The position numbers and the translations under genes were made by a program. Shown one piece after another: positions 1-63,995 of a DNA stretch of 64,000 nt (positions are counted from its first letter, which is position 1; each line of letters begins with the position of its first letter). The DNA comes from Gracilariopsis chorda (taxonomy: Eukaryota; Rhodophyta; Florideophyceae; Gracilariales; Gracilariaceae), in assembly GCA_003194525.1 (NCBI GenBank), contig NBIV01000096.1, positions 186,001 through 250,000 on the forward strand. Reading direction: 5' to 3'. The notes below the pieces were generated by a model. That model did not search any database. It worked only from the letters and a program-made list of their open reading frames with translations, and was not told the DNA's origin.

Positions 1-228
1 GGTTTCGGGAAGCATTGGAACGTGCGTCGAGGTGCGTGCGTGATAACGTCGCGCAACGCCGCGTGGGAGTCGACACTCAACGCACTGGAGCTCACATGGT
101 CCAAATGTGATGGTGCTACTACCCGAATAGCTGAGCAAGATGCCGAGGGCCGCAAGATTGTGCTGGCGACGCTGGAAGGAGAATTGACTCGCTTTGGCGA
201 TTGTTGGTGCCCCCTAGAGTCTATGTGA
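1..228 (+). CDS. C-terminal end of an NB-ARC/WD40 receptor paralogue (5' partial, transposon-interrupted)
   Basis: The frame is open from base 1 and encodes about 75 residues matching the C-terminus of the complete NB-ARC/WD40 protein at 56699-60535 (shared GACV, TSR-AAWESTL, DGATTRIAE, ATxEGE and FGDxW motifs). The WD40 domain and NB-ARC domain must lie left of the window. The frame now stops at 226-228, three codons into a DNA transposon that starts at 217. The original last 12 codons survive beyond the transposon at 3051-3088. Losing 12 of roughly 1280 residues might still leave a working protein. Identity to the paralogue is high, so the duplication is fairly recent. Cellular role is inferred from the paralogue: a STAND-type ATP-switch receptor. 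Confidence 0.8.
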   Translation, partial: GFGKHWNVRRGACVITSRNAAWESTLNALELTWSKCDGATTRIAEQDAEGRKIVLATLEGELTRFGDCWCPLESM

Positions 229-501
229 CCAGTGACCTCATATGAGGTCAATTTTAATTGCTCTAGAACTTTATCAAAACCTTAAAACTTTTCCAAAAAC
301 TTTTTCGCTTTCAAATTGTTATCATGTCCTTTACGCTGGCAGCACTGAACCATGTACATAACACATCACCAACAGTTGTAGCTGTCACATCAAGCATTAT
401 CGCCAATAACATTCGTACATAATGGCCCCGTCCACAGATCTTCGCAGAACTGTTGGAACAACTGTCAACAGGCATGCTCGTCTGGTTACAAATGACGCTG
501 A

Positions 502-2321
502 ATGCAACTTTACTATGGATCTTTATGGAAGTCAACAACGGTACAAGGTTCTGTCCTCAATGTTGACATTCGGAAGGTCAACAATCGAAATCTCACTTTT
601 CTGACTGAGACGTTTAGTCTACCGAACCAAGAAAGAGAAGGAACTCTCCCTCTATCTAGTGTAAAACTAGGCACTGGTGTTGAAGAAGCCGTGAATGCTG
701 CAGAAGAGCCTATTACTGAGATTGAACCCATTAATACGCAAAATATCGAGGAAGATGCTCTTGTGACACCATCTCAGATGCAAATTTGGCAGCCGCAAAC
801 AATTTTATTAAGCGAAAATGCACCTGTCCAATCAACTGTGATTCATGGTCATGTGTGGGAAACCTGTACGTCGTTGAGTCCTCTCCATGGTTGTATGCAA
901 ATGCATCAGTGGAAAGTGGTTGGCCCAGCCGGAGATTTTATCTCACGGCGTCACGTTCCTCCAAACATGAGTGCATTAGATTTCTTCTTTTGGATGTTCC
1001 CTATGCAACATTTGCAGTTCATATTGAACAGAACTAATGTTTGGTTAGAAAGCAAAGACGTTCGGAGGACTTCAGGGGGAGAATTGCTCAAATTCTTTGA
1101 AATTCCTACCCTCATGACTCGCATTTAGTTCTATTACAGACGGGATATTTGGAGCCTCCAAACTTTTTTTCTAAGTTTATTCCTCCGCCAAATATTGGTC
1201 TTGCGTTGTCACGAAACAGATTTCAAATGCTTAGCAACTCAATATGCTTCAGCGGAAATGGTGTGACTGAAGAGCAGGGAATCGCACGTTGGTCCTTCGC
1301 AGCAGATTTTGTGTAGGCAATCAATGACCATCGTCGGTCTTTTGTCACGCCATCACATGCCTTATGTGTTGATGAAGAAATGTCACGATGGAACGGATAA
1401 GGGGGTCATTGGATTGATGTCGAGCTTCCACACTATACGGCATTAGATAGAAAGCCGGAAAATGGTCTTGATATGAAGGCCGTATGTTGTGCACGAAGTG
1501 GCATAATGCTAAACATTGAGCTCAATATGGGTGCAAATATTCCGGAAAACGTTTTTGATTCTGATGAAGCCCATGGAACAGCAGCCTTACTTCGCTTAGT
1601 GCAACCATGGTTCGGATCAGAAAGGTTGGTATATGTGGATTCTTTTCTTGCGTCTGTCAGTACCGCGAAAGCATTACTGGAGAAAGTTTTACGGTTTACT
1701 GGAGTTGTCAAAAATTCTACTTGTGAATATCGTATGACACATCTCTCCGAAACGACTGTATCGGACAGGGGAGATTTTGTATCCATACTATCGAAAGGAA
1801 GCATTATCAATAATGATATAATGGCTATAATGTGGATGGACAGAGAAAGAAGGTATCTCGTATCAAGCTCTGGCACGGTTAATTTTGGTTCTCCTATTAT
1901 TCGAGAAAGGTGGAGACGGGAGGGAAATATTTCTAAGAAACTGGAATTGGAGGTCGCAATTCCCGAAGTGTGTGAAGAGTATTACAAAAACTGTTCAATG
2001 ATCGATCGCCATAACAGATGCAGACAAGATGATCTAAATCTGGAGAAGAAAATTGAAGCAAAAGAGTGCTCATTTCGAGTGAATTGCTCTCTTTTATCGA
2101 TTTGTATTGTGGACGCGTGGAAGTTGTACAAAGCCGCAAATAGAACCAGAAACGTGAAAAGTCAGCACCAATTCTCTTGCCAATTGGCTGATGAACTAAT
2201 TGAGAATACATGGGTTACCACAGGTCTAATGAGTAGGGATGAGCAAGAATGTGAAAATATTCATGAGAAGCCAATGTTTGGAGGCACTGGCTTGAATTTA
2301 ATGCAGACGAATAGAACGTAA
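502..2321 (+). pseudogene. piggyBac-like (DDE_Tnp_1_7) transposase, decayed
   Basis: The transposase would cut and paste the surrounding element. Two long open stretches, 502-1128 and 1473-2321, lie in different frames. The gap between them, read in the second frame, carries the family signature: SRNRFQML, then LCVDEEMSRWNG, a GGHW segment and LPHYTALDRKPE. The second stretch has LVYVDSFLASVSTAKALL, matching the second catalytic aspartate block, then NDIMAIMWMDRE and YYKNCSMIDRHNRCRQ, the oomycete/algal version of the piggyBac 'GVD..D' block. Damage seen: one frame change near 1110-1128, a TAG at about 1314 and a TAA at about 1398. The true N-terminus is not certain (the open stretch could begin near 422). 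It is not functional as it stands. Confidence 0.75.
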
Positions 2322-2804
2322 AAAAATAAGGATTGAAAGATTACAAAAGATTTATATCAAGGACGATGCAATTTCTGCAAAGGTAATACAAAGTCCAAGT
2401 TTTAATGTTCTAGGTCCTATACCAGAAAGGAAAACGAAGTGTTTTTATGTGACACAGGTACTAATAGAGATCGTTTTATGAAACAAATTGAAAAGGGTCA
2501 TGGTATAATGAAGTTCAAAAGCTGATAAAGATGTCTACAACCTTGTCAACATTCGTTTTTTAAATAAAAAATCTATTTTTGAACGCAAAAGTTTACAATA
2601 AGTTCATTTTACCTTTACACCCTTACTCATTCAATCCCCGTTATTTAGACTTGCTAGATTATTTAAACTCTATGACAAAACTACCCCTTCAATAGACAGA
2701 TGTCACTGTTATCTTTCTGTTGTTCAAGTGGGTGTTATACACATTCTGAGAGTTTAAATATATTCGGAATCAGTGGAGCTCCCAGAGGTGTTTTGGAGTT
2801 AAAG

Positions 2805-2880
2805 TAAACTTAACGAGGTTCGAACTCATATGTTGTTGCTCGCATGTGACCTTACGACCACTGAGCTGCTGTTATGGCAC
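2805..2880 (-). other. tRNA-like segment (pol III A- and B-box), likely SINE head or tRNA pseudogene
   Basis: On the minus strand a B-box-like GAGTTCGAACC sits in a T arm with a 5-bp stem and 7-nt TTCGAAC loop. An A-box-like AGCTCAGTGGTCG lies about 37 bp upstream. The acceptor ends do not pair well, and the D arm is long, so this is not a functional tRNA. The 5' side also forms an inverted repeat (CGACCACTG with CAGTGGTCG, 2855-2890). It lies in the non-coding tail of the 217-3048 transposon. Confidence 0.35.
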
Positions 2881-3050
2881 AGTGGTCGTCTTCTACAAGT
2901 AATTATAGTTCAAAGACAACCCTGTTGGCCATGTTTCAAGTTCGAAATTTATAATGTGGGGCCATGCGTATCAGATTTCATTTTTTTTTAATTTTGCGTG
3001 CGGATGCGCTGATCTCATATAATGTCAGCGCACCGGTCCGATAGACACTA

Positions 3051-3090
3051 AAGAGTGGCTTTTCTGAGTTCTTTGAAGTAAAAGAATAAA
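3051..3090 (+). pseudogene. Displaced last codons of the left-edge NB-ARC/WD40 paralogue
   Basis: The stretch AAGAGTGGCTTTTCTGAG onward encodes SGFSEFFEVKE followed by TAA, against SGFSEFCEVKH-stop in the intact gene. Similarity to the paralogue's 3' flank runs on for about 20 bp and then stops. This is the old 3' end of the receptor gene, now separated from its body by the transposon at 217-3048. Confidence 0.85.
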
Positions 3091-3099
3091 TGTAATTTT

Positions 3100-14722: not shown

Positions 14723-15398
14723 AGTGGCGTAACCGCCCTCTTCATGGCGTCCAGCGGGCATAACCCACTGGACGCCATGTATCGTAGGAGGAGGTGGCAT
14801 AACCAGCCCTCCTCGTGGCACCGAGTGGGCGTAGCCCACTCGGTGCCACACCAACAGACCCGAGGTGGCGTAACCGCCCTCTACATGGCGTCCAGCGGGC
14901 ATAACCCACTAGACGCCATGTATCGTAGAAGGAGGTGGCATAACCAGCCCTCCTCGTGGCACCGAGTGGGCGTAGCCCACTCGGTGCCACACCAACAGAC
15001 CCGAGGTGGCGTAACCGCCCTCTTCATGGCGTCCAGCGGGCATAACCCACTGGAAGCCATGTATCGTAGGAGGAGGTGGCATAACCAGCCCTCCTCATGG
15101 CACCGAGTGGGCGTAGCCCACTCAGTGCCACACCAACAGACCCGAGGTGGCGTAACCGCCCTCTTCATGGCGTCCAGCGGGCATAACCCACTGGACGCCA
15201 TGTATCGTAGGAGGAGGTGGCATAACCAGCCCTCCTCGTGGCACCGAGTGGGCGTAGCCCACTCGTTGCCACACCAACAGACCCAAGGTGGCGTAACCGC
15301 CCTCTTCATGGCGTCCAGCGGGCATAACTCACTGGACGCCATGTATCGTAGGAGGAGGTGGCATAACCAGCCCTCCTCGTGGTACGAAGTGGGCATAG
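14723..15398. repeat. Tandem array of ~4.8 units of 141 bp, each with four hairpins
   Basis: The phrase GGCGTCCAGCGGG recurs at 14746, 14887, 15028, 15169 and 15310, an exact 141-bp period. Each unit carries four inverted repeats whose centres are all GG-CRTAR-CC: one in GGCGTCCAG...CTGGACGCC, one in GAGGAGG...CCTCCTC, one with a 15-bp perfect stem (GTGGCACCGAGTGGG and its complement) and a weaker one in GAGGTGGCGTAACCGCCCTC. That makes about 19 copies of the core. Because 141 is a multiple of three and stop-free, long frames run through on both strands (14744-15481 plus, 14881-15441 minus). These are by-products of the repeat, not convincing genes. The array is much more GC-rich than its flanks. 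Confidence 0.9.
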
Positions 15399-33220: not shown

Positions 33221-33634
33221 AGAATTTCAATAGAACTTGCTCTTGCTACCGTTTGTTAAACAACAAACATCATAACCGAAGGTTTTACAGAACGTGAAAT
33301 GTTATAATCATTTTCCTGTAGTCGTTTTTTTTCTGGTTTGTACTTTGGATAGCAGAAACAATTGAGGTTTGGAAAGACGGTAAATCTTTTTGAGCATAAT
33401 GTCTGAAATACTTTCAATGTGTGCCTTTGCGTCAATCGATCGTTGAGGTAGGACGTATCGGAATGCTCGATTGTCGGTTTCTGTCAGTTGCACGTAAATT
33501 TCCGGGCACAAAATGTGCAAGATACACAACATCATAGTTCGTCTTCGTTTCTTTTTCTTTTGTAGGCTTTAGAAATGCTTGATTTTGAAGGAGGTTGAGG
33601 AAATCGGTAGCACTGGAGGAAAGAGTGAGTCGAG

Positions 33635-42033: not shown

Positions 42034-43482
42034 TCACCAAAGCGCATACATGATCGTGCGGTTATTACTGCACATCGTGCAAACCAAAGCGGCGATGCAA
42101 GTTACCATTCCTATACGGGCATTCAATAGTGCACGACAGAAGTTCAGTGAATGGATTAAATTTGCGAATAGAACCCGTGCGGTCAATCCAAAACCAGACC
42201 AAAGTGGTATAACCACAAGAGTAGCCCGAAATCGATTATGCCAAAAGGCAATTATCCGAGCGGATAATGTATTGCCCAGGGTTGGCATGCCACTATGCGG
42301 TAGCAAGAGCATTCCGAATCGGTGTAGGGTCAGTCATCTTGGTCAAATGATCAGCTACGTTCTGACCACTCCTGATAAAACCGATGTCAGAAATCTGTTT
42401 CGAGCGGTATCCCTCGCGAGCAATCGCAATATCAATCATCAAACTTTTCTCCGAAGTCCCTGATCCTTTATGGATAGTGTCAAACAGAGACTTCGAATCC
42501 GTAAGTAGACAAACCGGTTATGGGTTTCGGTTGACCAAAAGTCCGATTTCTGCCGAAAGCGTGTATGCGACATCGAACATGTCAGCGAATGCAATTAGCT
42601 CAGCTGCTAGGATCGAACGGGTGACGCGACGAGCCTTATAAGACTTGAAGATCAGAAAGATTAATTTTCGAAAACGGTCAGAGAGTAGCACAATGTATCC
42701 CAGTTGAGAAGTTAAGTCCGAATTGTTGGCAAAAGAAGCGTCGGAAACACCAAGGATACGGATGGATTCGATACTCAAAGACCCGAACGGGATGGAAACG
42801 TCATAAGCCTTGACGTATTCAATCGTTTTGTTGATTTGATTCAATATCCGAATGCAGTCTTCCTCAAAGCCTTCTCTTGTCACCTGAGTGAATTGAGATA
42901 ACTGATAAAGGATATCAATCCTCGAGTGAGCGAGCCATGCGAGCTTCATCCGAACGGACGTAAAGCTTGCATACATACCGTCAGCTGGAATAGGTAGGGT
43001 CTTTGCGACATATTGTCGCTGAGTGATCTGCATATTTCCCGAGCGGTCACGCTCAATTCCAAAACCAGTGAAGGTGCGAGGTAAGTCCGAGTCGGGTTTA
43101 GTATCGAACTGTTCTTGGGATCGGCGGCAGAGTTCACGAAACTCGTTCGTTCCCGTGCGGAATAGGTCATCAACATAAGAACCAGACAGTCCTTCAAGGG
43201 TACCATCGCGGATTAGGTAGTAGAGCGCTGGGTCGCAGCGCAATGCTTTCATTCCTAAATCTGAACGGTGATGCTTATCCATGGTAGCGAACCAGAGGTC
43301 TCCTGATTTACAAAGTCCGTACTGTGGAGCAATGGAACCGATAGTACCGGTGGCGAAGACATTCATATAGAATTTTTTACCTCGTAAGATGACGTGTCTA
43401 TGGTTATGAAGTACCCCCTGTTTTGGGTTGATTTGGAACAGTCGATAATGGGTACCTTCACCGGTGAATCGGGCATTGGACC
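42034..43482 (-). pseudogene. copia reverse transcriptase and RNase H (minus strand)
   Basis: LFQINPKQGVLHNHRHVIL, the catalytic block GSYVDDLFRTGTNEF, GYIVLLSDRF and KARRVTRSILAAELIAFADM mark a copia polymerase. The upstream edge is set by the start of the gypsy LTR at 43483. Confidence 0.85.
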
Positions 43483-44443
43483 TGTGTACAGGTGGTATAC
43501 TGTACTGTGTGGACACCTGGCAGGTGGATGTTGGTGGCACAGTCGTGCGGGGCACCCTGACAGTGGGTTGACCACGTGTATGGACCTCGTAAGGTGTGCA
43601 CCATTTTACTTAATTGTTTTAGTTTATTTCAGTAGAACTTACTTAGGTGAGGCTGGCCTCAACCGACCTCCCCTACAGTAAAAGGCGACTGAGTCGCGTC
43701 TTCCTCCCGAAGGATGAGCTATAGTCGTATCCACCTACGTAGGTTCACTACTTTTCGCGGAGGGTAACTACGGCTGGTTTTGGTGCGTCTACTCCTCAGG
43801 GTCATGTAGGAAGCTCCATCTATTGGTTCTACTTATCATCCGGAAGTACGGATTGTCCTGAGACTGTGATCGGTTTCCGCCCCTGTAGAAGGCATTATTT
43901 CGTTGTTCCTTATCGTTGTCGCTCCGCATACGGACCTGTCACCGCTTGTCGCACGGTCCGCGGCTCTGCTCTGGGTTGTGCTTTCCCACGAGCGTTCACG
44001 GTCCTACGGTATCCCTTTTCCCTATCTCTTTTCCCCCTCTTTTCCGGGTTTTCCCGAATTCCCTGTTGGTCTTACTACCCCTTGGTCCCTCACCTCTGCA
44101 GGTATATCCAGTAACCGTCTCCGGTCTTACACCCGGCGTGCACTGCACTGAGTACGGGCAGAGGGCTCTTCCGCTATGTTCACCTCCATAGAGGGCGGAC
44201 CCCGGACATCTGGTAAGCGAACTCTCTTCAGAGGGTTTTGCTCTACATTTTGGTCTCCCGACCTAGAAAGGGATTAAAATCAATTGTTCCTCGTTTGAGG
44301 TTGGAAGTAGAGTTACCCCTTTTTCCCCTTTTGAGGGTCGTTCCTGTTGTTCAACCAGTCATTGGGTTGATCGAAGGCGATTCTCCTCGTTTCTCCGCAA
44401 TTCGGAAGTTTGGTGAAGTTGTTTTGACTTTCCCGAGTTTCGA

Positions 44444-46295
44444 GTGGCTAGCTGCAGTATTCCTCCCCCACCTCAGTCTTCGAGGGCTCGCTCCGCGAAT
44501 TTGGAAGGTCCCCGATCATTGGCGCCCTCCCGTTCCCGCTCCTCCGCCCAGGATATGAATGCCACTTCAACCAATCTAGATAGCCGGAATACCCGCTCTG
44601 TTGAGCCTGGAACTCAAGAGGTTGCTGTTCCGACGGCCCCACAACCGATAGTGGAGACCCTTCCAGCAGCCCCTCTGGAGAAAATGGTCTCTGCAGAGTT
44701 TACTGTTCTGGACGCAGGCATGAACGTTGCTAACGTTGCTCACGTGGAACTCCTACAACAGGTTACCGAACTTCAGCGTAAGGTGGATGACGCCCATGTT
44801 AGGGATGTCTCGGGAGATATTCGACTCCTGAGACAGGAAATGAACTCTTTTTTAGAGAGCTTTGGTGCCTCAAGGGCTTTCGTTGACAGTTACCAGCGTG
44901 TGGTGGAAGATTTTCGAGTCGTTACGGATAGAATCCACGCTCGCGTCGACACCCTGGAAGCCACCAGTCGTATGGATGCAGAGGCAGAAGCCGCTGAGCG
45001 GAACAACTCCGCTTCGGAGGGCTCTGATCATCGTTCCAAAAAACGGCGCGGTCGCAAGTCTACAAAGGAGTTCCACAATTATTCGGATTCATCCGGTTCG
45101 GATTCTGACAGTAGTCGGGCCAGCTCGTCGTCCTCTTCATCCGCTTCATCGGAGGGTGAAGGTGGTCGACGTCGCTCCCGTTCTACTCGGTCCAAGGCAA
45201 CCCATTCCTCTTACGGTGCTGTTCAAACCCGTAAGAAGTGTAAGAATTATTCTTGACTGAAGGAGTTAGAGCCGACGAAACCGTTATATCGGAAGTTGTT
45301 ATCGTACCGCTATTATCGGTTAAAGAAGTCTTCCGGGGAGCGCACCTCCAGAAGTACTGGGAAGGTCAGGGACTACGTCCGAAGACTCGGAATCACCATG
45401 GGTAAACGCGAGTTTAATCTTGGTGCTTGACTTCCTTGCTAGGTTCGTTCACGAAGCCGAATTGCTCGGTATGAATGAGGGACAGGCCTATTTGGCTCTC
45501 CTGTATTTCCTCAAGCGTATGGCTGAAGATCAGTACAACACCGTCCGCGGATCCTCGCAAGCCTTGAAAGGCGGTGTAACCAGATGGCCAGAAGCGGTTC
45601 AATACCTCCTAAGGTCGTACGCGACTGGAAATGCAATCCAGCAGGCGACCCCAGCCCTGAGAGATACAAAACAACGACTCGATGAAACCGAGACGGCTTA
45701 TTCAACGCGCTTGAATAAGGCGTTTCACCAATGCGGTAATGTTCTTCCTTCACAGGAGAGATGTTCCATGTTGGTTGATGGACTGGACCCCGCCATTCGA
45801 GCACTGATAGCCCGTCATCGGGAGGAACACAGGAGGATAACCTACTTAAAGCTGGTGCAATACGCTCAAGCAAAAGGTGATACACTGCGAGTGAGACAGA
45901 AGCCGAAAAGTCGGAAAGTGCTCTTTGTAGAAGGATCTAACTCCACACACTCCCATTCGTACGGTCGCCGTTTCGATCCCAATCAGGACAACTTCCATCT
46001 CGTTGGTAGTAACCCCGAGTCGTTCGGTACTTCAGACCAACCGTCAACTTCGATTCCATCTTCGGGGAGTGACGCGGCATTGTACGCTAACGGAAGCCGG
46101 ATTACGGCGGCTGCTATCCCATACGTGGACCGAACAACAAGTTTCAGACGTCCTGGATGGAAGGAGAACACACCAACTACTCGAGTGGACTCGCGTTTGC
46201 GAGGCATCCCGAACTCGGTGATTTGCTATGAGTGCTATGCCCGGGGCACGCCTCAACTCAATGCACGCTCCCTACAAGGGAAAGGTCAACAATAG
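44444..46295 (+). pseudogene. gypsy gag region
   Basis: A first part with a coiled-coil-like stretch (ELLQQVTELQRKVDDAHVRD) and a Ser/Arg-rich tail, then a capsid-like part (FLARFVHEAELLGMNEGQAY, ATPALRDTKQRLDETETAY). Part of the 43483-51284 fossil. Confidence 0.7.
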
Positions 46296-46632
46296 TCGCT
46301 CAGTTCGAAGCTCTACCTCCGGATATTCAAGCTCGGATCCGTAGAACCTCTTATCAGGGAGCCAAATGGATGCTGAACCAGCCTCGTGGTGAAGATCGTT
46401 ACGCCGCAGCGACGGGCCCTGCACCCAACGGAACCTCGAAGGAGAGCAACGTATCCGCGAACGGGGATCAACCGGATTCCCGGGCCAGAACCCTTCATTA
46501 ACCGGAGGCCTCGGTCCCAAAAAACTAAACTCGAGAGCCTCCCCTGTAGGAGGGGCGTCTTCTGAGCTGAAGCTGAAGACGCCCGAGGCCCCGACGCTTC
46601 GCTCCCCGGCTGTTAGAATCCCTACTAGGAAG

Positions 46633-47034
46633 ATGGCTGCCACAGACGTGGATTTGGAACACCTTGGTGTTTTACGTCGCCTCTGGATACGGTCCCGCAA
46701 CCTCCGTATCCCAGATAGAATCCTGGTCATGTACAAGAGGAATTATAAGGTTTACGCCGACCTCGGCCTATCCAACCAGTTCATGGTGCGTCAGTTATCT
46801 GTCCTTGAAACAGGAGCTGCCCCCAACTTGATACACAGGAAGATGGTACCACCCGCCCTTCGAGAGAACGTCCGTTTTGGTCCAAGGTTGGATATCAGCG
46901 ATGCAAACGGAAACCTGATACGTACTGCTGGGTATATCTCTCTCCTTCTGAGGCTTGGAACTTGTTTGGTACAGCTGGATTTCATCGTCTGCGACTCGCT
47001 CTCAGCACCGGTTATATTCGGTTGTGACTTTTGA
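46633..47034 (+). pseudogene. gypsy protease region
   Basis: Retropepsin-like stretch around TGAAPNLIHRKMVPP, with LDFIVCDSLSAPVIFGCDF at the end, the usual closing strand. Between gag and polymerase. Confidence 0.65.
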
Positions 47035-47859
47035 GACCGTTTCTTTGAGGCCATTCGCCCCCGTAAGAGGACGGTGGAAATGGAAGATGGTTCCCTTATT
47101 ACGATTGTCCGGAAGCCGATAAGAACCGCCACGCGGAAGCATGTACCGTTACCGGTTGCGCAGAAAGCACCGGAACACAACCAGGTTTCTACGAAGTTGC
47201 ACGTTGCGAAGTCTGTGCAAATTCCACCGGAAGCCCAAGGGTGGGTCGAAGTCACCACCAAACAATTTGGTCTCCACGTCGTTCAACCGATGCTCGGTTT
47301 ATACGAACACCGTCAGCTTTCACTCGCTAACGGAGTTGTTCTCATTGAGCCCGACACACCTTTCAAGTTCTTAGTTGCCAACTTTGGAAAATCTACCCAG
47401 TACCTGGTCAAGAAGCAAGTAATTGGTTCTGTCTTGCCTCACCCGTCAGCGGTAGTTGCAACGAAGATTCAGTTTTAAAAGTTTCTCGGAGTATCTGACC
47501 CTAAGGAGGGGGCGGTAGCCGCTGATTCGCACGACACAGTTGCGTCGGATAACACCCAAACGATTCTGGGTTCAGAACTCTCGGAACCTTTGAAGGTCAA
47601 ACCTGTATCACCTGGCAGTGAACAGACGGATCCTGTTAAGGAGTTAATGAATCTCAATTTGGGGCATGTACCGGAGTCCCATCGGGAGAGGTTACGCGAC
47701 ATGTTAGGCGAATTTACTCCCATGTGGGATGGCACTCTAGGAACAATTGGAGTTACAGAGCACTGCACTGATCTACTTCCCAACACTCGGCCCATTGCTC
47801 AACACCGTTATAGAGCTGGACCAAAAGCTCGGGAGGAAGAGAAGTCTCAATTCTAGAGG

Positions 47860-49536
47860 ATGCTACGCGCTGGCGTGATCGAGCCCGCCCAATCAGCATG
47901 GGCGTCGCCAGTCGTGTTAGTTCCGAAGCCGGATGGTTCTTGGCGGTTCTGCATTGACTACCGACGACTGAACGCAGTCACGGTGAAAGATGTATTTCCG
48001 ATACCCCGGATGGACGAGTATATCGACTCCCTTGGGAGTGCAAATGTGCTTACCACCCTGGACGCTAATTGGGGCTATTTGCAAGTCCCAATCAGGGAGG
48101 AAGACCGAAACAAGACGGCGTTTGTGTGTCATCAAGGCTTATACCATTTTTGGCGTATGCCCCTTGGGCTAACCGACGCGCCCGCAACGTTCCAGCGAGC
48201 GGTTGATATCCTCTTTGCTAAGTTCAAGCGGACCACTTGTCTGGTTTATCTGGACGACATCGTCGTGTTCTCCAACAATCTGGACGGGCATCTCTCCCAT
48301 TTCCGGTACGTTATGAGAGTACTGCGTGACGCAGAAATTACATTGAGGCTCAAGAAGTGTGAGTTTTTCACCGAATCGGTTAAGTACCTGGGGCATATCG
48401 TTCGCCCAGGGAAGCTTACAATCGACGAGGTTCGGGTGAAATCCTTAAAGGAGGCTAAAAATCCAACCACCCAGACGGAGCTCCGATCCTTCCTAGGACT
48501 GTGTAATGTGTACCGACGTTTCGTTCCAAACTTGGCGGATATCGCGGCTCCACTGAACAAACTCCTTACGAAAGGACAGCCAGTCAAACGGGACCCCTTT
48601 GGCGATGCTGAGGCATCCGCCTTTACGGCTTTGGTGAACGCCGTAACGTCTCCGCCAATTTTGGCTCTCCCCAAACCTGGGTTACCTTATGAGTTCGATA
48701 CTAACGCTAGTGCGAACCAGGTTGGCTGTGCGCTGTTTCAAAGCGACGAGACCAGTGAACGACGCCCCATTGGGTACTGGTCGCGATCACTGAACGTGCA
48801 CGAACGGAATTGCTCAGTCTCGGAGAAGGAATGCCTTGCCGTGATCTGGGCGCTTCCAACACTCAGGCCCTACTTGATGGGAACTCACTTCCGAGTACAG
48901 ACGGATCACTCCTGTCTCAGGTGGTTAATGGAAATCACTGAGGCTTCGGGTCGCTTGATGCGTTGGCGTCTCCGACTTTCGGAAGTCGACTTCGAAGTGA
49001 TGTACAAGAAGGGAAGCCTTAACTTGCAGGCAGACGCTTTCTCCCCTCTGGGAATTTCCGCTGAAGCAGAACCCAGTGAGGATGCTGAAATACCATGCTT
49101 CATGGTTGGTGACCTCGAGGGAGACGCTGAAATCCTTTTGGATGACGTGTGTGACGAAATTCTCGCCACACAGACCACAGAACCGGTTGCCGGTTCATTT
49201 ATACCCATTAACCCTGAAGAGATGATTAGGGAACAGCAAACCGACTCCTTTTGCACACAGGTTCGCGCCCCTCTTAGGGGTGGATACAACCTACCTTTCG
49301 GGACCAACAACCAGGGCTACTTAGTCCGAATGGTGGAAGCTAACCCCCAAATTGTGGTGCCTCACTGTTTGCAGAGTCGTGTCTTTCACTTGTCACACTA
49401 CGTGAAGCTTGGAGCCCACCCGGGAGGAAGGAAGTTATATCTCACCCTACGAAGGGACTTTTATTGGCCTGCGATGGCTTTCGACTGTTACGCGGCTCGT
49501 CGCTTCTGTTTGGAGTGCGCGAAGAATAATATCTGA
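47860..49536 (+). pseudogene. gypsy reverse transcriptase, RNase H and integrase zinc domain
   Basis: A long open stretch with GVIEPAQSAWASPVVLVPK, RFCIDYRRLNAVTV, the catalytic CLVYLDDIVVFS, FLGLCNVYRRFVPN, RNase H (PYEFDTNASANQVGCALF, CSVSEKECLAVIWAL) and at its end the HHCC-type integrase zinc region (HPGGRKLYLTLRRDFYWP). Part of the 43483-51284 fossil. Confidence 0.9.
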
Positions 49537-49593
49537 CTTCGGAAGCATTCGAAACCGCTAACGTTATTCCCTGCAAGAGCACCGCTCGAATTC

Positions 49594-50673
49594 GTGGCCA
49601 TGGACATCTTAGGAGAACTCATAAAAACCTCGAGAGGCAACCAATACCTACTGGTCATAACTGACAGGTTCTCGAAGCTCGTGAGAACTGTGCCCCTCAA
49701 GAGGATCACTGCTGCCACTGTTGCTCAAGCATTCGTCACCCATTGGGTTTTCGTTTACGGCCCGCCAGTACAGCTACTCTCCGACAACGGATTGCAGTTC
49801 ACATCAAAGTTCTTTCAAGATGTTTGCACAATCTTGGAAATTAGGAATGTGTTTACTACAACTTATCATCCCCAGACAAATGGGCAGGTAGAAAGGTTCA
49901 ACCGAACGCTACTCGGTTCTTCAAGAGCATACGTTGCGGAACACCCCAAATCTTGGGACCTTTACACTGACGCAATTACTTACGCGTACAACACTCAAGT
50001 TCATCGGGTAACTTCGTTATCACCATTCGAATTGAATCTGTCAAGAACGCGGCTTCCTCTGGCAATCGAAGCTCAACCAACTTTGGATAGTTACCCCTCC
50101 CCGGGTTCGTACCGTGAAACCTGGAAGAAATGGCTCACCAAGATGGTTCCTGTCGCTCGCGCCTCAATGGAGAAGGCTCAGGCCGCATACAAGTGGAATT
50201 TTGACGATCGTATTCGTAAACCGCTGCCCGAGCCACGGGCCGGTGATTATGTGTTCCTTCGTAAAGAGTACTACAATCCTGAGAAGAAACGTCGTCACAA
50301 ATTATCGCCCATTACGAGTGGACCCTATCAGGTGATTTCAGTTGAACAGGACACCGTAGTGCTGGATATCGATAACCAACACGAACTGGTATCACGCAAT
50401 CGCGTCTGCCGCGCGCCAACTCCTTCACAGAAAGCTTCTTCGCCGCGTTCGGACGGTAATCAGGAAGCCGCAACATCGGATAATACCGCAGGACCGGTTA
50501 GTACGCTATCGCGACCCTCGGTACTTCCGCACCTGCGTTGCGGTTTGGCCGAACTAACTGAATTATGGGAACCACCCAAGGGTAACCTCGTACTCTCTCG
50601 GGTTACCCCTACACACGCTACGAGTCAACCCCCCGAATACGGTGATAAACGCAGATGCCGTTTCACCGCGTAA
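49594..50673 (+). pseudogene. gypsy integrase core
   Basis: Catalytic core: MDILGELIKTSRGNQYLLV, QLLSDNGLQFTSKFF and TTYHPQTNGQVERFNRTLL, with a C-terminal SH3-like part (GPYQVISVEQDTVVLDI). Follows the polymerase. Confidence 0.9.
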
Positions 50674-54647: not shown

Positions 54648-55880
54648 TGTGAAATATAAAATAAATCCACGAAATTCAATAAATCCAAAAAGTTCTTTAA
54701 TGTGTTTTGGCGCCTTCTGTTGTCGTATCTGAAAAAAACGACTACCACAACAAAAAACGCCATGCTAAATAGTTCTTGAACAAGAACTTTTAAAACAGCG
54801 TTACAAATAATGCCTCGCGGTAAAGCGCTAACTGACAGAGAAAAAGGCATCATTCTAGCCTTACGACATGGACAACTCAGCGAACGAGAAATTGCTAATG
54901 CTGTCGGTCGATCCAGGGGAGCTGTTCAAAACGTTCTGAAAAACTTCGACAAATCCAAACGCAAATATCCAAGAGCTAACAACCGTAAGCTTACCAATAA
55001 CACAGAGCATCGAATCATTCGAAAGGCCCTGACTGGTGAGTTTAGTGCCAATCACATACGTCGGGACATGCAACTACCCGTCACAACCCGTCGTGTTCAG
55101 CAAATACTTCACAATTTCCCCCACCTAAAGTACAAGAAAATGATGAAGGGTCCATATATGAAGGCTTGAAACAAAATTCGAAGAATATAATTTGCCAGGA
55201 AGTACCTTCAATCAGAAGCTATTGACTGGAAGAATGTTATTTTCACGGATGAAGAAAAGTTTAATTAAGATGGACCCGAAGGCAATTGCATGTACTGGCA
55301 TGTTTTACGAACCGAAAAAAGGTAGTTTTCTAAACGCAACATGGGAGGAGGAGCTGTAATGGTTTGGGGAGCCATTTATTATTACGGTGCTTTGCAGGTA
55401 GTGGAAATAAGCGGTAATCAGAATTCTAATGACTAAGTGAAGCTACTTGACGAGAACCTTTTACCGTTTGCTGCGGAAACCCTGGAAGAAAATTGGACTT
55501 TGGTTCATGATGGGGCTTCTATTCATCGTTCTAAGGTCACCAAAGAGTGGATAGCACGCAAGAAGGTGGATGTTCTACAGTGGTCTGCTCATAGTCTGGA
55601 CCTTAAGTTAATCGAAAATGTCTGGGGTGCTATGGTTCGAGATGTCTACCACGGTTTCAAGCAGGTTAAAACTGTAGAAGAACTTGGTGCAAAGATTGAA
55701 TCAGTTTGGAATAATATGGAAGAAACTTTTATAAGGAATTTTAACCGTTCTATCAATAACCGTCTATTGTGTATGCTGGACGCAAATGGTGGGCCATCAG
55801 GCTACTGAATGTGTTGTTTTGGCTAAGAAGTCCTTTTTTTTGGACTTATTGAATTTCGTGGATTTATGGTAAATTTCACA
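54648..55880 (+). mobile_element. Tc1/mariner transposon
   Basis: Inverted ends of about 48 bp (TGTGAAATATAAAATAAATC... and its complement ending ATTTCACA) with TA on each side (54646-47 and 55881-82), the target duplication of this superfamily. Length 1233 bp. It contains the transposase relic 54810-55808. Nested in the inverted-repeat element 54477-56051. Confidence 0.85.
54810..55808 (+). pseudogene. Tc1/mariner transposase, decayed
   Basis: N-terminal paired helix-turn-helix: LTDREKGIILALRHGQLSER, EIANAVGRSRGAVQNVLKNF. The catalytic part has VIFTDEEKFN (first Asp), GGGAVMVWGA, LVHDGASIHRS (second Asp) and LIENVWGAMV (third acidic residue, Glu). The open stretches 54810-55169 and 55437-55808 are separated by about 270 bp with several stops and frame changes. 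Confidence 0.85.
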
Positions 55881-56698: not shown

Positions 56699-59600
56699 AT
56701 GGATGTTGCCACGGGTATAGCAGCTGCTGCAAGCGTGGTGAAAGTGCTAAGTGAGCTCGACAAATTAGTTGGAAGACTCGTTGTGCGTAGTAATGTCGCG
56801 CAGGATAATGCTGAAACTCTACATCGATTGGATCAGTTGTACAAAGACGCGGCTAATGTACTACAGGCACCTGAGCACATTCCGAGCACCAACTTTATCA
56901 TAACCGATAGACTTGGCCATTTTGAGACACTTTTGCAACAAAACGCCGAGAAGCTCGAAGAATGGCGTACGAGTGTAGAAACAGGCACTTTCATGAATAG
57001 AGTTCAACGAATGAAACAAATCCTTGACAAGTGCGAAAAGGATGCCACGGAATTCTACCAGTTTTTGATGGAACATGTATCTCCAGCTATTAACGAAGAG
57101 GACAATGCACAACCTGGAATATACGCACGAGACAACAACGTTCCACGAAACCCACCCCGATTGACGCAAGATTATGACAATCCCAATACTTGCGAAGGAC
57201 GGCTCAGAGCATCCATTCTGGACCCAAGTAGCAGACAAGTAATCGCTGTTGTGGCCTCAGGGAAGGGAGGGGTTGGCAAGACGTGCGCCATGCGCGGACT
57301 AGCTTGGGAACCCCGCATTCGCGAACGATTTTCTGGTGGTACGCTGTACATACAGCTTGGAAATGATTCAGATATATCCACTGTAATCAAAGGGATCGCA
57401 CGAGTCGTGGATCGCACGGGGAACGCGAGTTTGGCAAAAACGATTGCAAGAATCAGACTTCTTCAAGACGCAGCCGACAAAGCATCAATCTGGTTCCGGC
57501 CACATACGTGTCTCCTGCTAATAGATGACATTTGGTGGGAAAACGGAATTGACATCGAAGTTCTCAGAGTTCTTTGCCAAATGCTGAACGAAGAAAGCCG
57601 CATAGTATTTACCTCGAGAGACAGACGGTTTTTGGAGGGTGCCGATTCAGAGATAGAATTTAAGGAGACAGAAGCACGAAGCGTCCTAGCACGGAGGATG
57701 CTAATGACGCACGCAGGCTTTGAGGGCGGGACTGAGCTTGGAGAGAAAAATGAGGCAGCCGTTGGAGCTATTCTTGACATGTGCCAAGGGCTTCCTCTTG
57801 CGCTTGGTATTGCAGGCGCTTCTGTTCGAAGCATCCTGGGCACGAAGCGTGCAGATCAGGGACAAGACGCGTGGTCTGATTTCCATGAAGATTTGTTGTC
57901 GAAGCGGAAGAATTTGCTTAATACCTCGCACGAGAAGAACAAGCTGCCGAATATTGTGGATATTTCTCTTGAAGTGTTGGAGAAGAGCAGTGACGGTAGA
58001 AGCTACCAGCAGCTTTTCAAGGCTTTGTGTGTTATTCAAAAACAACAGACGGTGCCGATTCGTATGCTTCAGAAGTTGTGGGATTTGAATCAGATTGACG
58101 AAGCCAAAGAAGTTGTGCAAAAGTTTTGTACGGTGTCGATTGTGCAAAAATGTACGGATGGCAGCACTTGCATACAGCTGCATGACTTGATACTGGATAT
58201 TGCCGTTGACAGAGCATCCGAACAGTTCGAGACTCAAAAGTACTTCCGAACCCTGGTCTGCAACTACATCCCAAGTGAAGAGAGAATGAATGCGCCATCG
58301 AATGATCCGGAGACTACAGAAGAGCAGGATACTGGAGTTTGTGTTGGTAAGATATCTAAGCGAATGATTCTGCAACTATTCTGTTGCATGCCAGGCCCAG
58401 GCAGTGATACTGAGCCGGTTGATTCCACGCGAGTAGACACGCATCCCGTCAGCGTGTTCCAAAAGTGGTGGGACACTGCAGATGATGCATACTTGCACGA
58501 CAACCTCTGCCGAGTACTTAGGGAAGCAGGATACGCTAACGAACTGATTTGGTTACTATCGAAACCGCAATGGATTGTGATGCGGCTGTTGCACGGCGGA
58601 ATCTACGCTGTCGAACAAGATCTAGAGCACGGCAAAGCTATTGCGCGATACAAGGCACCCAAGGAGGAGAAGATGCTAAAGTTTCTGGAAGCGGTGGGCA
58701 AAGCAGCGCGCATGAGCTGTACATTTGTGGAGGACAACCCTTATGAAGTATGGTTCCAGATGTACGGGCGTCTGGTGTGGTACGCGAAGGGATGCAACAG
58801 AACGCAAACATTTATCGACGAATTAGAACAGTGCGCGCGGAAACCATGGGCCAAACCCTCTGAACGCTTTCTTCAACCCGCTGGAGGGCCGGGCATGGGT
58901 TTGGTGAGCTGCCCTGGTACGGTACTTTGTGCATCTGAACACGATGATCGTTTGGTTTTCTTGTGGTACACAGACTCTGAAAACGTCTGTGTGACGCGGT
59001 ACAACCCGAAAACTGGGGTCCGTTCTACGCACAAGCTCCGATCCGAAGAAGGGACGGCACGCTTTTCAGGCTATACACAATCCGCCGCGTTTTCGTCGGA
59101 CAGGAAAAAGGTATCCACCGGTCATGAAACTGGAAAAACTGTGATTTGGGACCTGCAAACAGGATTCATGGAACGAGTTCTCGACGGCCACACGGGCGCG
59201 GTGTGGTGTGTGGCGTTCAGCGCGGATAGCACTCGGGTGGTGTCCGGGTCACAGGACCGCACTGTGCGACTATGGGACGCGCGCAGCGGAGAGGCGGTGG
59301 CGCAGGCTCTCGTCGGTCACACGGGTGCGGTGTGGTGTGTGGCGTTCAGTGCGGATGGCACTCGGGTGGTGTCCGGGTCAGACGACCGCACTGTCCGACT
59401 GTGGGACGCGCGCAGCGGAGAGGCGGTGGCGCAGGCTCTCGTCGGTCACACGGGTGCGGTGTGGTGTGTGGCGTTCAGCGCGGATGGCACTCGGGTGGTG
59501 TCCGGGTCATACGACGGCACTGTGCGACTGTGGGACGTGCGCAGCGGAGAGGCGGTGGCGCAGGCTCTCGTCGGTCACACGGACGCGGTGATGTGTGTGG

Positions 59601-60535
59601 CGTTCAGCGCGGATGGCACTCGAGTGGTGTCCGGGTCATACGACCGCACTGTCCGACTGTGGGACGCGCGCAGCGGAGAGGCGGTGGCGCAGGCTCTCGT
59701 CGGTCACACGGGTGCGGTGTGGTGTGTGGCGTTCAGCGCGGATGGCACTCGGGTGGTGTCCGGGTCATACGACGGCACTGTGCGACTGTGGGACGCGCGC
59801 AGCGGAGAGGCGGTGGCGCAGGCTCTCGTCGGTCACACGTCGGCGGTGTGGTGTGTGGCGTTCAGCGCGGATGGCACTCGAATGGTGTCCGGGTCACAGG
59901 ACCGCACTGTGCGACTGTGGGACGTGCGCAGCGGAGAGGCGCAGGCTCTCGTCGGTCACACGGGCGCGGTGTGGTGTGTGGCGTTCAGCGCGGATGGCAC
60001 TCGGGTAGTGTCCGGGTCGCTCGACTGCACTGTGCGACTGTGGGACGCGCGCAGCGGAGAGGCGGTGGCGCAGGCTCTCGTCGGTCACACCGGCGTGGTG
60101 GTGTGTGTGGCGTTCAGCGCGGATGGCACTCGAGCGGTGTCCGGGTCACTCGACGGCACTGTGCGACTGTGGGACGCGCGCAGCGGAGAGGCGGTAAGCG
60201 CCGCGCTGCCGCACGGCCAACGTATCACACGTGTTGCAGTGGATGCGCATGGGCTGTGCGTGGTGTCCTTCGCTTTCGGTGGTGTCGGGAAGCTGTGGGA
60301 CGTGCCTCGGGGGGCATGCGTGATGACGTCGCGCGACGCCGCGTGGGAGTCGACGCTCGACGCGCTGGTGCTCAAATGGTCCACACATGATGGTGCTACT
60401 ACCCGAATAGCTGAGCGAGATGCAGAGGGCTGCGATATTGTGCTGGCAACGCCGGAAGGAGAAGTGACTCACTTTGGCGATCGTTGGTGCTCCCTACAGA
60501 GTGGCTTTTCTGAGTTCTGTGAAGTAAAACACTAA
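56699..60535 (+). CDS. NB-ARC / WD40-repeat STAND receptor (NLR-like), 1278 residues
   Basis: An ATP-switch protein expected to sit inactive and oligomerise on sensing a ligand. N-terminus 1-150: helical bundle of unknown type. NB-ARC: P-loop GKGGVGKT 188-195, Walker B LLLIDDIWW 273-280, RNBS-B-like RIVFTSRDRR, GLPLAL 364-369, and LHD at 494-496 in place of MHD. A helical linker (about 500-800) is followed by WD40 repeats from about residue 830 to 1165: eight almost identical 43-residue units (GHTGAVWCVAFSADGTRVVS type), one 2 residues shorter, plus degenerate blades on each side. Differences fall at a few positions: after GHT, the W of AVWC, and the two residues around SGS-x-D-x. ATG at 56699 has A at -3 and G at +4. 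Single exon, no lesions. Repeat R lies upstream. A paralogue's tail is at 1-228. Immune or self-recognition role is inferred from the architecture. Confidence 0.9.
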   Translation: MDVATGIAAAASVVKVLSELDKLVGRLVVRSNVAQDNAETLHRLDQLYKDAANVLQAPEHIPSTNFIITDRLGHFETLLQQNAEKLEEWRTSVETGTFMNRVQRMKQILDKCEKDATEFYQFLMEHVSPAINEEDNAQPGIYARDNNVPRNPPRLTQDYDNPNTCEGRLRASILDPSSRQVIAVVASGKGGVGKTCAMRGLAWEPRIRERFSGGTLYIQLGNDSDISTVIKGIARVVDRTGNASLAKTIARIRLLQDAADKASIWFRPHTCLLLIDDIWWENGIDIEVLRVLCQMLNEESRIVFTSRDRRFLEGADSEIEFKETEARSVLARRMLMTHAGFEGGTELGEKNEAAVGAILDMCQGLPLALGIAGASVRSILGTKRADQGQDAWSDFHEDLLSKRKNLLNTSHEKNKLPNIVDISLEVLEKSSDGRSYQQLFKALCVIQKQQTVPIRMLQKLWDLNQIDEAKEVVQKFCTVSIVQKCTDGSTCIQLHDLILDIAVDRASEQFETQKYFRTLVCNYIPSEERMNAPSNDPETTEEQDTGVCVGKISKRMILQLFCCMPGPGSDTEPVDSTRVDTHPVSVFQKWWDTADDAYLHDNLCRVLREAGYANELIWLLSKPQWIVMRLLHGGIYAVEQDLEHGKAIARYKAPKEEKMLKFLEAVGKAARMSCTFVEDNPYEVWFQMYGRLVWYAKGCNRTQTFIDELEQCARKPWAKPSERFLQPAGGPGMGLVSCPGTVLCASEHDDRLVFLWYTDSENVCVTRYNPKTGVRSTHKLRSEEGTARFSGYTQSAAFSSDRKKVSTGHETGKTVIWDLQTGFMERVLDGHTGAVWCVAFSADSTRVVSGSQDRTVRLWDARSGEAVAQALVGHTGAVWCVAFSADGTRVVSGSDDRTVRLWDARSGEAVAQALVGHTGAVWCVAFSADGTRVVSGSYDGTVRLWDVRSGEAVAQALVGHTDAVMCVAFSADGTRVVSGSYDRTVRLWDARSGEAVAQALVGHTGAVWCVAFSADGTRVVSGSYDGTVRLWDARSGEAVAQALVGHTSAVWCVAFSADGTRMVSGSQDRTVRLWDVRSGEAQALVGHTGAVWCVAFSADGTRVVSGSLDCTVRLWDARSGEAVAQALVGHTGVVVCVAFSADGTRAVSGSLDGTVRLWDARSGEAVSAALPHGQRITRVAVDAHGLCVVSFAFGGVGKLWDVPRGACVMTSRDAAWESTLDALVLKWSTHDGATTRIAERDAEGCDIVLATPEGEVTHFGDRWCSLQSGFSEFCEVKH
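59186..60200 (+). repeat. Tandem 129-bp WD40-coding repeats
   Basis: Eight units of 129 bp (one of 123 bp, at about 59846-59968), almost identical at the DNA level, including silent positions. This points to unequal crossing-over or gene conversion within the gene. Confidence 0.9.
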
Positions 60536-61098: not shown

Positions 61099-63291
61099 AT
61101 GCCTTGCAGCTGTAAGAAAAAGCTTTGCTCGACCTGCCGAGCATGCAGTGCTTGCACATGCACATGCATTGCGGTTTCGGCTCAACCGCGCGGTCCCCCT
61201 CGAACTCTGGGGAAACGAAAGCGAACCATTATGTCTTATGCTGATCATGAAACGGACCTGGCGGAACTAGTGCATAACAAAAGAATTAATCGCTCTGTAT
61301 CCATCCGTGAAGGGGGCGCCTTGTCATCAGTTCAGGAAAACGAAAAGCTTAACCAACTTCTACATGTACTAAACTTATCCAGAATACTGCACAATCTGCC
61401 CAAAACACGCAAGACCATTGTTGTTGACAACGCCAAGGCAGGCGATTTGAACCGTTGCGATTACGCCTTCACTCAGATAATGACTGCTGTATCTGAACTA
61501 ATCTACCCAGGCGACAGTGCGGCGTTCCTCAAAAGGCAACAGTTCAAGCTAGCAACTGGTGCTGACGCCGAATGCGTCTATTCTGTGATAACGGCCGTTA
61601 GGGCGTCAAAAAGGGGCTCTATAGAACGGCGTGTCTTGCGGGGCTTCTTGTGTGCCCATATCCCGCGCACTAAGTTGAATGAGCTTTTTCAGAAGCATAC
61701 AGTCTATGGTGAAGAAAACGACCAAAGTCTGGAAGGACCTTCAAGTAATCATGATGCCGTCAATGCAGGGGACATCGTAGAGAATGCGTCCCAGTCTGTC
61801 CGGGATACTATGAGCGCGAGTGCCAGTCATGAGGAAGACAGTAATTTTCCTGGTATAGCTAAACGAACATATACAGCTTCAAGGCTAGATTGGGACCGCC
61901 TTATTGTGCGTGGAAGCTTGAAGCAGGAAAAAAGGCAGCTCACCAGAGGCACGGACGCAGAGGCCGGCCGCCTTGTCAGATTTCTGTTTTCCAGGCGCAA
62001 CGCTCAGTTACTGTCTTGGGGTACAAAGACTATCAACATGGGAGCTGAGAAAGTTGTGCTCCCAGCTGTGACACGTAAGCTCAAAAGGGCACTGATGTTC
62101 CGAGATTATGTGCAAGCATGCAAAGCGGAGGGTGAAAGCAGTGTTGGTCGAACCACTTTTTTCAGGTGGCAAATACTTTGATGACGCGAGAGTCAAAACG
62201 AAAAAGTGCTGTGGACTACGTGGTCGGCGCCTTAGTGAACGACAGCGTCCTGATTCTGAATCGTATTGTTCGGGCTTTCAGTACTGGGCAGACACAAAAA
62301 AAATGTTAGAGAACATAGAAAGAGTGCAGCACTTTCTAAAAGGGGTCTTCGTTGAGACGCACATTGGCAAGGACAATGACGGGTACCACGACAGCAGCCA
62401 TGCCCTGTCTGATGGCTTTGGGCCTACTGGCGCTCAGCTAATCCAAACAGTCCCTGTCACATTCAGAGGCTGTCTAAAGCCATTTGCATTACTGAATCAA
62501 ATACAAGCCATCGTTCCTACTGAAAGAAAGGATGCCTCAAATGCTGTAGATCGCTGCAGCCGTTGCTTTCAGGAATACTTTGCTCATCTTCATAGAGTGA
62601 AAATGCAGCAACGGGCATTCGAAAAGATAACTACGGACATCGTAGAGCACAAACTCCACAACCGGGCAGTATTGTTGGCTGATTACAAGATGAAGTTTGA
62701 GCCCATCCGGTTTCGCGAGAAGACTGTGGAGTTCTTCGGCAAGCGTGGTATTTCGTGGCACGGATTAGTGGTGTTCTATCTAGAAAAGCAATATGATTCA
62801 AATGGGGAATACAATGGTCCGGGGCATCTGTCTATGCTTTTCTACGACCATATTGTACATGGAGACTCAAGACAAGATGTCGTTGCCGTGGCATCTATAC
62901 TAGAAGCTGGGTGCATGCGGATAAGAAAAGACTTGCCCGTCGTTAATGAAGTAGTTCTTGTGAGCGACAATGCAGGCTGCTATCAGAACTCATTGCTCCC
63001 TATTATTGCCCTATTCGTTGCAAAACAGAACGGGCTCTCTATGGTACAGTTCATCCACTCTGAAACTCAAGATGGGAAATCATTGGTTGACGCTCACTTT
63101 GCTATTGCTATGAAGCATGTGAGTGACTATGTTGCAGAGGGTCACGACGTTACTACTCCGTCAGGTCTTGTCACAGCGCTAAGAGCGAACGGTGGTCTGT
63201 CGAACTCTAGTGCAGAATTAGTGCGCATATATAGAGCTCATCCAAACCTGGCAGGTTGGGAGGCACTACATGCATCCGACAACAATGGCTT
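61099..63291 (+). pseudogene. DDE transposase-like gene with N-terminal Cys cluster, 3' cut by an LTR
   Basis: Two overlapping frames, 61099-62181 and 62108-63290, fit together at a T6 run near 62158, where a +1 shift carries FRDYVQACKAEGESS into KYFDDARVKTKKC. The N-terminus PCSCKKKLCSTCRACSACTC is a dense cysteine cluster, perhaps zinc-binding. The core has VLLADYKMKFEPIRF, REKTVEFFGKRGISWHGL, EVVLVSDNAGCYQN and SETQDGKSLVDAHFA, a likely RNase H-fold with three Asp-containing blocks. Similar proteins are common in aquatic animals and algae; the superfamily name is uncertain (KDZ-like Cys clusters are a comparison only). Coding sequence stops at 63291, where a gypsy LTR begins. Confidence 0.6.
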
Positions 63292-63995
63292 TGTGGTGCA
63301 ATGCCCCAAAGGGGAAAAACACCGAAAGACGTCCGGGATCTTCCTCTCACGAGGTGAAACCAGTTGGGTAGAGCCCTCCCAGAGGTGTCACGGCGAAGCC
63401 GGTTTGTAAGACCAGGGACACCTGTCGCGACTCGCGCAGGGAGGTGAAGGCGAAGAATCGGTATCCGCGTGAGCGGGGTGTGGTCCTCAGTAGAGGTATG
63501 TTTCCACGTAAGTGGGGGTGTGTGAGCGGATGCGCACACGAGGGCCGCGGATAGCGGGAGGTGCTACCCTAAAAAGGGGAAAGAGGAAGGACGAGTGGGT
63601 CGCGAGAGCGACGAGTAGATACGGCGATGCCGGTGGACAGGACTCCCTATACAGGGCGAAACACCAATATGATTGGAACAATTAGTACTCCCAATGATGG
63701 GTCTCCTTTAGATGTGCAAGGGGGGTGAACTTCCGTACACTACGGTGCTTCCCTCCAAGGAGGAGTTGAGAACACGCGGAGGCGGTAAAGCTCAGAGCCA
63801 ATTCCCCAGGTTGGGGTCCCTTGTTGGGGAAGGTTTACTGGTGCGACGGCAGTGCGCCGTCGCACTAAGTACTAGCTTCCCAGAAATGGGTGTGAAAATA
63901 ATAAATAAAATTAACTAAAGTACTCCACATTCCGTGGCAACATCCACTACTGTGGCCAACCGCCAATTGACCCAAAACCGTGTCCCACGTGTCCA
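63292..63995 (-). repeat. gypsy LTR (minus orientation) at the window edge
   Basis: Strongly similar to 51936-52657. The flank on its left is the transposase-like gene, so it is either a solo LTR or the 3' LTR of an element that continues beyond base 64000. Confidence 0.8.

Follow-up and report, generated by a model that had tools for sequence, protein, structure and literature searches.

Does the sensor of a putative red algal receptor diversify in the way known from fungal incompatibility proteins? The question is raised by a 64,000-nucleotide stretch of the Gracilariopsis chorda genome (contig NBIV01000096.1, positions 186,001 to 250,000; hereafter the window), in which an earlier note, made from the letters alone, had singled out one gene near the 3′ end. 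At 56699-60535 on the plus strand, the window holds a single open frame of 1278 amino acids plus stop, joining an NB-ARC domain to eight nearly identical WD40 units. Variation between these units is concentrated at the published selected positions of the HNWD proteins of Podospora, and the gene probably encodes a receptor of the signal transduction ATPase with numerous domains (STAND) or nucleotide-binding oligomerization domain (NOD)-like receptor (NLR) type, in which the WD40 sensor would diversify in the manner of HNWD proteins, here on an Apaf-1-type NB-ARC. Both components are already known: NB-ARC/APAF1_C/WD40 proteins have been described, and the diversification pattern is known from fungi and bacteria.

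Unit variation and the HNWD positions

The units begin at residues 830, 873, 916, 959, 1002, 1045, 1086, and 1129 (nucleotides 59186, 59315, 59444, 59573, 59702, 59831, 59954, and 60083). They stand in tandem, as the earlier note had described for eight consecutive 43-residue units, but only seven have that length, the sixth spanning 41 amino acids with two codons fewer, in frame, after SGEA. The array was also picked up independently by Tandem Repeats Finder, at 59179-60195 with a period of 129, 7.9 copies, 92% matches, and a score of 1705. Pairwise DNA identity is 91–99% within units 1-7, which bears out the claim of a near-identical array joined to an NB-ARC, and 81–84% between unit 8 and the rest, largely because all six of the last codons of unit 8 differ. 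A second frame of 386 amino acids running through the array (59230-60390) was rejected as a gene, since it simply follows from a 129-bp period that contains no stop.

Eight amino acids vary within unit positions 1-37 (4, 5, 7, 15, 18, 23, 25, and 32), while positions 39, 40, and 43 vary in unit 8 only; the variable sites named in the earlier note are all among them, but 5, 15, 18, and 32 had been missed. In Podospora HNWD proteins, codons 7, 9, 25, and 27 are strongly positively selected and paired around the conserved codons 8 and 26 (PMC1805685), and HNWD repeats are typed by seven positions, namely 10, 11, 12, 14, 30, 32, and 39 (PMC12222747). In our own alignment of these positions with the present units, the two HNWD pairs were matched to the flanks of the invariant V6 and D24, giving offsets of 2 and 7, so that the two published sets map to unit positions 5, 7, 23, and 25 and to 3, 4, 5, 7, 23, 25, and 32 (hereafter the four and the seven HNWD codons).

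Under this register, six of the eight variable residues in codons 1-37 fall on the seven HNWD positions (P = 8e-5), as do 6 of 11 across all 43 codons (P = 5e-4), and five of the seven positions vary in units 1-7 alone (P = 4e-4), all three values being uncorrected for register choice. The resemblance to HNWD and HET-E suggested in the earlier note is supported for the pattern of variation, with six of the seven positions coinciding. Sliding the register from −8 to +8 gave 11 extra residue states for the true register against 0–5 for the 16 alternatives (wrapped beyond codons 1-37); the seven alternatives for which no wrapping was required likewise gave 0–5. Codons 1-37 show 27 distinct nucleotide changes, of which 17 sit in the seven HNWD codons, a count matched in none of 20,000 random throws, and every one of the eight units has its own residue combination at these positions.

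A first structure prediction, from the single sequence of residues 700-1278, was unusable (mean predicted local distance difference test score, pLDDT, 39.7). A second model (m57cf94802c22), built with an alignment (A1) of the window protein and 11 bacterial rows, reached a mean pLDDT of 70.9 and a predicted template modelling score of 0.67, with blades and strand positions visible. Model residue 131 is the first of unit 1, whose strands A to D occupy unit positions 6-11, 17-22, 26-31, and 37-43, respectively. Judged by these strands, the D-A loop contains positions 4 and 5, the B-C turn contains 23 and 25, and 7 falls at the start of strand A; in WD40 propellers, all three of these places belong to the top, ligand-binding side. 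The expectation that the variable positions would map to the ligand face thus held for these five, but not for 15 (A-B loop) and 32 (C-D loop), placed by the model on the opposite side of the propeller, or for 18, within strand B. The array is flanked by two degenerate blades on its N-terminal side and by one or two on its C-terminal side, some of them, including the first, modelled with low confidence. The 11–12 blades in total may form one ring or two, the long Foldseek matches being of high root-mean-square deviation.

Likely selection and possible exchange between units

Changes were counted as the minimum per codon. Within codons 1-37, replacement changes number about 15 and synonymous changes 3 in the seven HNWD codons, against 3 and 7 in the other 30 codons (Fisher P = 0.008); across all 43 codons, 10 replacement and 12 synonymous changes lie outside the seven (P = 0.015 versus 15:3 inside). 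Changes over the aligned repeats, for which the earlier note had put forward dN/dS per codon as a check, are neither evenly spread nor, in these codons, mostly synonymous. With the synonymous rate of codons 1-37 as reference, the replacement rate is raised 2.8-fold at the seven codons (P = 0.007) and 3.3-fold at the four HNWD codons (P = 0.009). With that of all 43 codons, these ratios become 2.2 (P = 0.018) and 2.6 (P = 0.022); units 1-7 give 3.1 (P = 0.005) and 3.4 (P = 0.015). Outside the seven codons, replacements are depleted (P = 0.005). Pairwise comparison of units 1-7 gave a mean non-synonymous rate (dN) of 0.334 at the seven HNWD codons and 0.008 elsewhere, for an array synonymous rate (dS) of 0.096.

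Several points weigh against an HNWD-like diversifying sensor. The enrichment P values are, as stated, uncorrected for register choice, positions 15 and 18 vary despite lying outside the HNWD list, and position 32 is on that list yet lies opposite the ligand face. Fold constraint alone would drive changes to the surface of a WD40 domain, yet it would not lift dN above dS. The diversifying choice claimed in the earlier note is supported by the 2.8-fold excess of replacements, but less clearly by the seven codons taken alone, where dN/dS is 1.7 on about three synonymous changes, and where comparing first and second codon positions with fourfold sites yields no significant difference (P = 0.065). 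Because of these last two results, diversifying selection at the HNWD codons, as judged from eight repeats, is likely but unproven.

An unlikely alternative is that the blades were simply duplicated recently, in a young minisatellite-like expansion whose residues vary where the WD40 fold tolerates it, with no diversifying selection or recognition role. The strong constraint outside the seven codons would fit this, as would the record that highly repetitive WD40 proteins with variable hotspots are frequent in bacteria and fungi, no animal or plant protein being among the 305 of that survey (PMC5587647). So would the tail of a second family member in the window (see below), which has been changing apparently neutrally relative to the receptor gene (dN/dS 1.02 over 73 codons) and may for that reason be decaying, and a Streptomyces array in which the replacement excess is borderline (Fisher P = 0.057 for seven codons, 0.049 for four). 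What duplication alone accounts for poorly is the replacement rate at the seven codons above the array synonymous rate, together with codons that differ by multiple steps at position 23 (CAG, GAC, TAC, and CTC) and likewise at position 4.

Exchange between the diversifying units is suggested by the presence of all four gametes in 16 of 36 informative site pairs, which would fit shuffling or conversion between units and hence the concerted evolution proposed in the earlier note; since most of these pairs involve fast sites, however, repeated mutation explains part of them. The number and order of units, or their homogeneity, might also stem from collapsed short reads: repeat arrays of this sort were not recovered from Illumina assemblies (PMC12222747), and possible mis-assembly of unit number and order is a further point against our reading. 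We nevertheless regard an artefact as very improbable, as the units are distinct and in frame, including the two-codon difference of unit 6, and an artefact would not put replacement changes at HNWD positions.

Protein architecture, relatives, and proposed role

From its sequence, the protein is probably of the STAND/NLR type, with an Apaf-1-like NB-ARC and C-terminal superstructure-forming repeats as the predicted sensor (Table 1). In a motif scan, the NB-ARC motifs look intact: P-loop GKGGVGKT (residue 188), Walker B LLLIDD (272), TSR (305), and GLPL (364), with LHD at residue 494 occupying the MHD place of the winged helix. Both winged-helix profiles score above the cut-off of 27 bits (PF22164, 29.7; PF21296, 27.3). 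Of the solved proteins, Apaf-1 comes nearest to the pre-WD40 part (E = 2e-10), while E is only 0.14 for a protein with an RPW8 domain. The family assignment is less clear-cut at two places: the APAF1_C match between the winged helix and the WD40 part scores 20.2 bits against a cut-off of 22.8, and no N-terminal effector domain emerged, with no Pfam family above cut-off for residues 1-155 and no credible relative of residues 1-170 among solved proteins. NCBIfam profiles likewise gave no match to the first 790 residues. An N-terminal UCH match (E = 0.0016) fell under the cut-off and was taken as chance, and the single PADLOC match, a HEAT/ARM model over WD40 residues 920-1037, as one repeat matching another. 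The N-terminus is vaguely reminiscent of the helical-bundle domains in NLRs of fungi and plants, an impression on which we base no claim.

The joining of such a nucleotide-binding (NB) domain to WD40 repeats in a red alga, pointed out in the earlier note, was already published for Chondrus crispus, where 58 of the 61 NB genes are of the NB-WD40 type (PMC7145615). Rhodophyta proteins with NB-ARC, winged helix, APAF1_C, and WD40 are on record (PMC8891106), and Pyropia has NB-ARC and WD40 transcripts, three of them up-regulated during oomycete infection (PMC6928737). The present gene shares this domain order, with its APAF1_C match under the cut-off, and Chondrus has a multigene set, but TIR domains occur in 23 of the 58 Chondrus genes whereas no TIR match was found here with Pfam. 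The red algal NB-WD40 literature, in the parts available, does not mention near-identical blades or hypervariable positions, and no red algal NB-WD40 gene with such repeats emerged from the passages returned by full-text searches of open-licence papers, some of which had other aims.

Like HET-E, HET-D, and HET-R of Podospora, the protein is a putative NLR with a near-identical WD40 array varying at the same unit positions and belonging to a multigene family, and near-identical WD40 repeats have been described more widely in fungal NLRs (PMC4986451). The likening to HNWD stops at the pattern, however: the NOD is an NB-ARC here and a NACHT there, with NACHT absent from the eight Pfam families listed for the protein at E values up to 10, so that the gene lies outside the HNWD family. 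Allorecognition has also been shown genetically for HNWD genes, whereas the present gene is known from its sequence. The brown algal LRR-ROCO proteins are also candidate receptors of an alga, with shuffling repeats and positive selection at four codons that probably lie on the ligand face, but they combine leucine-rich repeat (LRR) exons with a ROC-COR GTPase rather than WD40 with NB-ARC (PMC11378527).

With Apaf-1 and Dark, the protein shares the order NB-ARC, winged helix, helical domain, and WD40, whereas a CARD was not found in it with Pfam, and, to our knowledge, Apaf-1 blades are not near-identical. This architecture would also fit a scaffold or homeostatic Apaf-1-like adaptor, active for example in cell death control or nucleic acid sensing, whose blade identity would serve stability or symmetric binding. 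Apaf-1-like proteins have been reported as DNA sensors (PMC11747288) and highly repetitive WD40 proteins described as more stable (PMC5587647). Yet a symmetric ligand would disfavour blades that, in all eight cases, differ in their HNWD-position combination, and the second copy in the window along with the large Chondrus NB-WD40 set (PMC7145615) suggest a receptor family; we consider an adaptor improbable.

Relatives with similar arrays were found in bacteria. Residues 440-1171 matched 364 plasmid records, 13 of 20 listed being examined in detail, and a search of genome contigs with the WD40 part gave 31 stretches, 11 loci of which encode WD40 proteins. Plasmids gave nothing at 1e-3 with the N-terminal 790 residues, phages nothing at 1e-2 with residues 440-790, and viral contigs no match to the pre-WD40 part; one viral stretch fitted a pattern from the WD40 part but coded for no relative and was set aside. 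Thirty-nine bacterial loci were then scanned in their plus-strand frames, over the first 33 codons per unit, for arrays in which five or more units lie within 83% of consensus. Four arrays passed, in three of the loci (L033 with two, L017 and L027 with one each). Every one of them has a higher replacement rate at the HNWD positions than the array synonymous rate, only slightly so in the first L033 array (1.36 at four codons and 1.09 at seven, versus 0.98), and of the seven codons that change most in each array, five or six are HNWD codons. None of the 11 loci identified through WD40 similarity alone (L001-L011) had an array that passed the filter. The other 28 had been picked by APAF1_C or by likeness to residues 440-1171, so the scan covers a biased set and is no census. 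The Streptomyces array (L031), extracted by its own pattern, failed the filter.

A close parallel is WP_235112855.1, from a plasmid of Acaryochloris sp. 'Moss Beach' (L027), with an NB-ARC (E = 5e-27), an APAF1_C (E = 3.6e-13), and 13 near-identical WD40 units. Its seven HNWD codons carry 22 replacement and no synonymous changes, and codons 4, 5, 23, 25, and 7 are among its seven most variable. It differs from the red algal protein in being bacterial and plasmid-borne, in lacking a long N-terminal region, in a winged-helix match under the cut-off, and in its CHAT and TIR neighbours. At the locus itself (1493-6601), CHAT and TIR genes flank the NB-ARC/APAF1_C/WD40 gene. L017 has an APAF1_C match in a frame that is STAND-like by eye. 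In the Haliscomenobacter plasmid locus (L033, 180-7157), SIR2, nSTAND1, and two WD40 genes follow one another, both WD40 proteins having near-identical arrays that vary at ligand-face codons; this neighbourhood looks like a split STAND defence receptor.

If the red algal protein is an HNWD-like receptor on an Apaf-1-type NB-ARC, it would act as a switch of Apaf-1 architecture, from an N-terminal signalling part through NB-ARC, winged helix, and APAF1_C to WD40, the C-terminal propeller being the putative sensor with its top face binding the ligand. Blades would be copied and homogenized at the DNA level by unequal exchange or gene conversion, which would preserve the fold and leave the array able to gain, lose, and reorder units, while replacement changes would persist mainly at the ligand-face codons 4, 5, 7, 23, and 25, presumably selected by non-self or pathogen ligands. 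Ligand binding may then free the NB-ARC for nucleotide exchange and oligomerization, gathering the N-termini into a signal, by analogy with Apaf-1 and NLRs. Specificity could shift by blade exchange and point changes at few codons, as HNWD genes do (PMC2873952).

More tentatively, a red algal multigene family of Apaf-1-type NB-ARC proteins may form an expandable non-self repertoire, with blades shuffled or homogenized within and between genes and ligand-face codons diversifying; this is possible rather than probable. Such a family would be a red algal counterpart to the fungal HNWD incompatibility receptors and to bacterial STAND proteins with near-identical WD40 arrays. Neither Porphyra umbilicalis nor Pyropia yezoensis yielded fusions of nucleotide-binding site and LRR domains (PMC6928737). 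For non-self recognition within red algal cells, the present gene offers a concrete candidate, an Apaf-1-type NB-ARC with blades varying at the positions of HET-E and some bacterial STAND-linked arrays, and suggests that this propeller diversification arose, or was retained, in fungi, bacteria, and algae.

Feature coordinates, second copy, and the rest of the window

Table 1 Features of the receptor gene and of the second family member, in window coordinates
Feature	Coordinates	Strand	Basis
Intact coding sequence, intron not required	56699..60535	+	Open frame, 1278 aa
N-terminal region, aa 1-176	56699..57226	+	No family above cut-off; signalling/effector role presumed
NB-ARC, aa 177-425	57227..57973	+	Pfam PF00931, E 9.2e-16
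Winged helix, Apaf-1/Dark type, aa 436-500	58004..58198	+	PF22164 E 8.8e-7; PF21296 E 4.3e-6
APAF1_C-like helical domain, aa 593-665	58475..58693	+	PF17908 E 6e-4, below cut-off
Two degenerate WD40-like blades ahead of the array, aa 745-829	58931..59185	+	Strands in structure model
Eight near-identical WD40 units	59186..60211	+	Sequence alignment and Tandem Repeats Finder
Degenerate C-terminal blade(s), aa 1172-1278	60212..60532	+	Structure model, last part low confidence
Tail of second family member	1..219	+	86% DNA identity to receptor gene codons 1195-1267; body beyond the window
Insert in second copy, 2828 bp	220..3047	.	PF13843 transposase at 1401-2321
Remaining 3′ end of second copy past the insert	3048..3099	+	90% identity

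The second copy was detected by tblastn and blastn of the window with the receptor gene, and ends about 54 kb upstream of the start of that gene on the same strand. Its frame continues a few codons into the insert before a stop, and any array that it has would lie beyond the window. The transposase in the insert is of a type that we take to be piggyBac, and the sequences at the two junctions, CTAGAG and CTAAAG, are a possible target duplication.

Elsewhere in the window, a tandem array at 14724-15398 (141 bp, 4.8 copies, 96% matches) has one long covering open frame on each strand. A Gypsy-type long terminal repeat element occupies 44417-50673, with reverse transcriptase, RNase H, and integrase zinc-binding matches at 47857-49536 and surrounding gag-like and integrase frames judged by eye. 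Other transposon pieces lie at 32417-33226, 55437-55808, and 42518-43609 (DDE_Tnp_4, mariner-like DDE_3, and a sub-threshold, Copia-like RVT_2), and a Copia-like frame at 39443-40162 was recognized by eye only. Directly after the receptor gene, at 61099-63409, are two overlapping frames of 360 and 437 amino acids without a Pfam match at E 0.01, which by eye resemble one gene split by a frame change.

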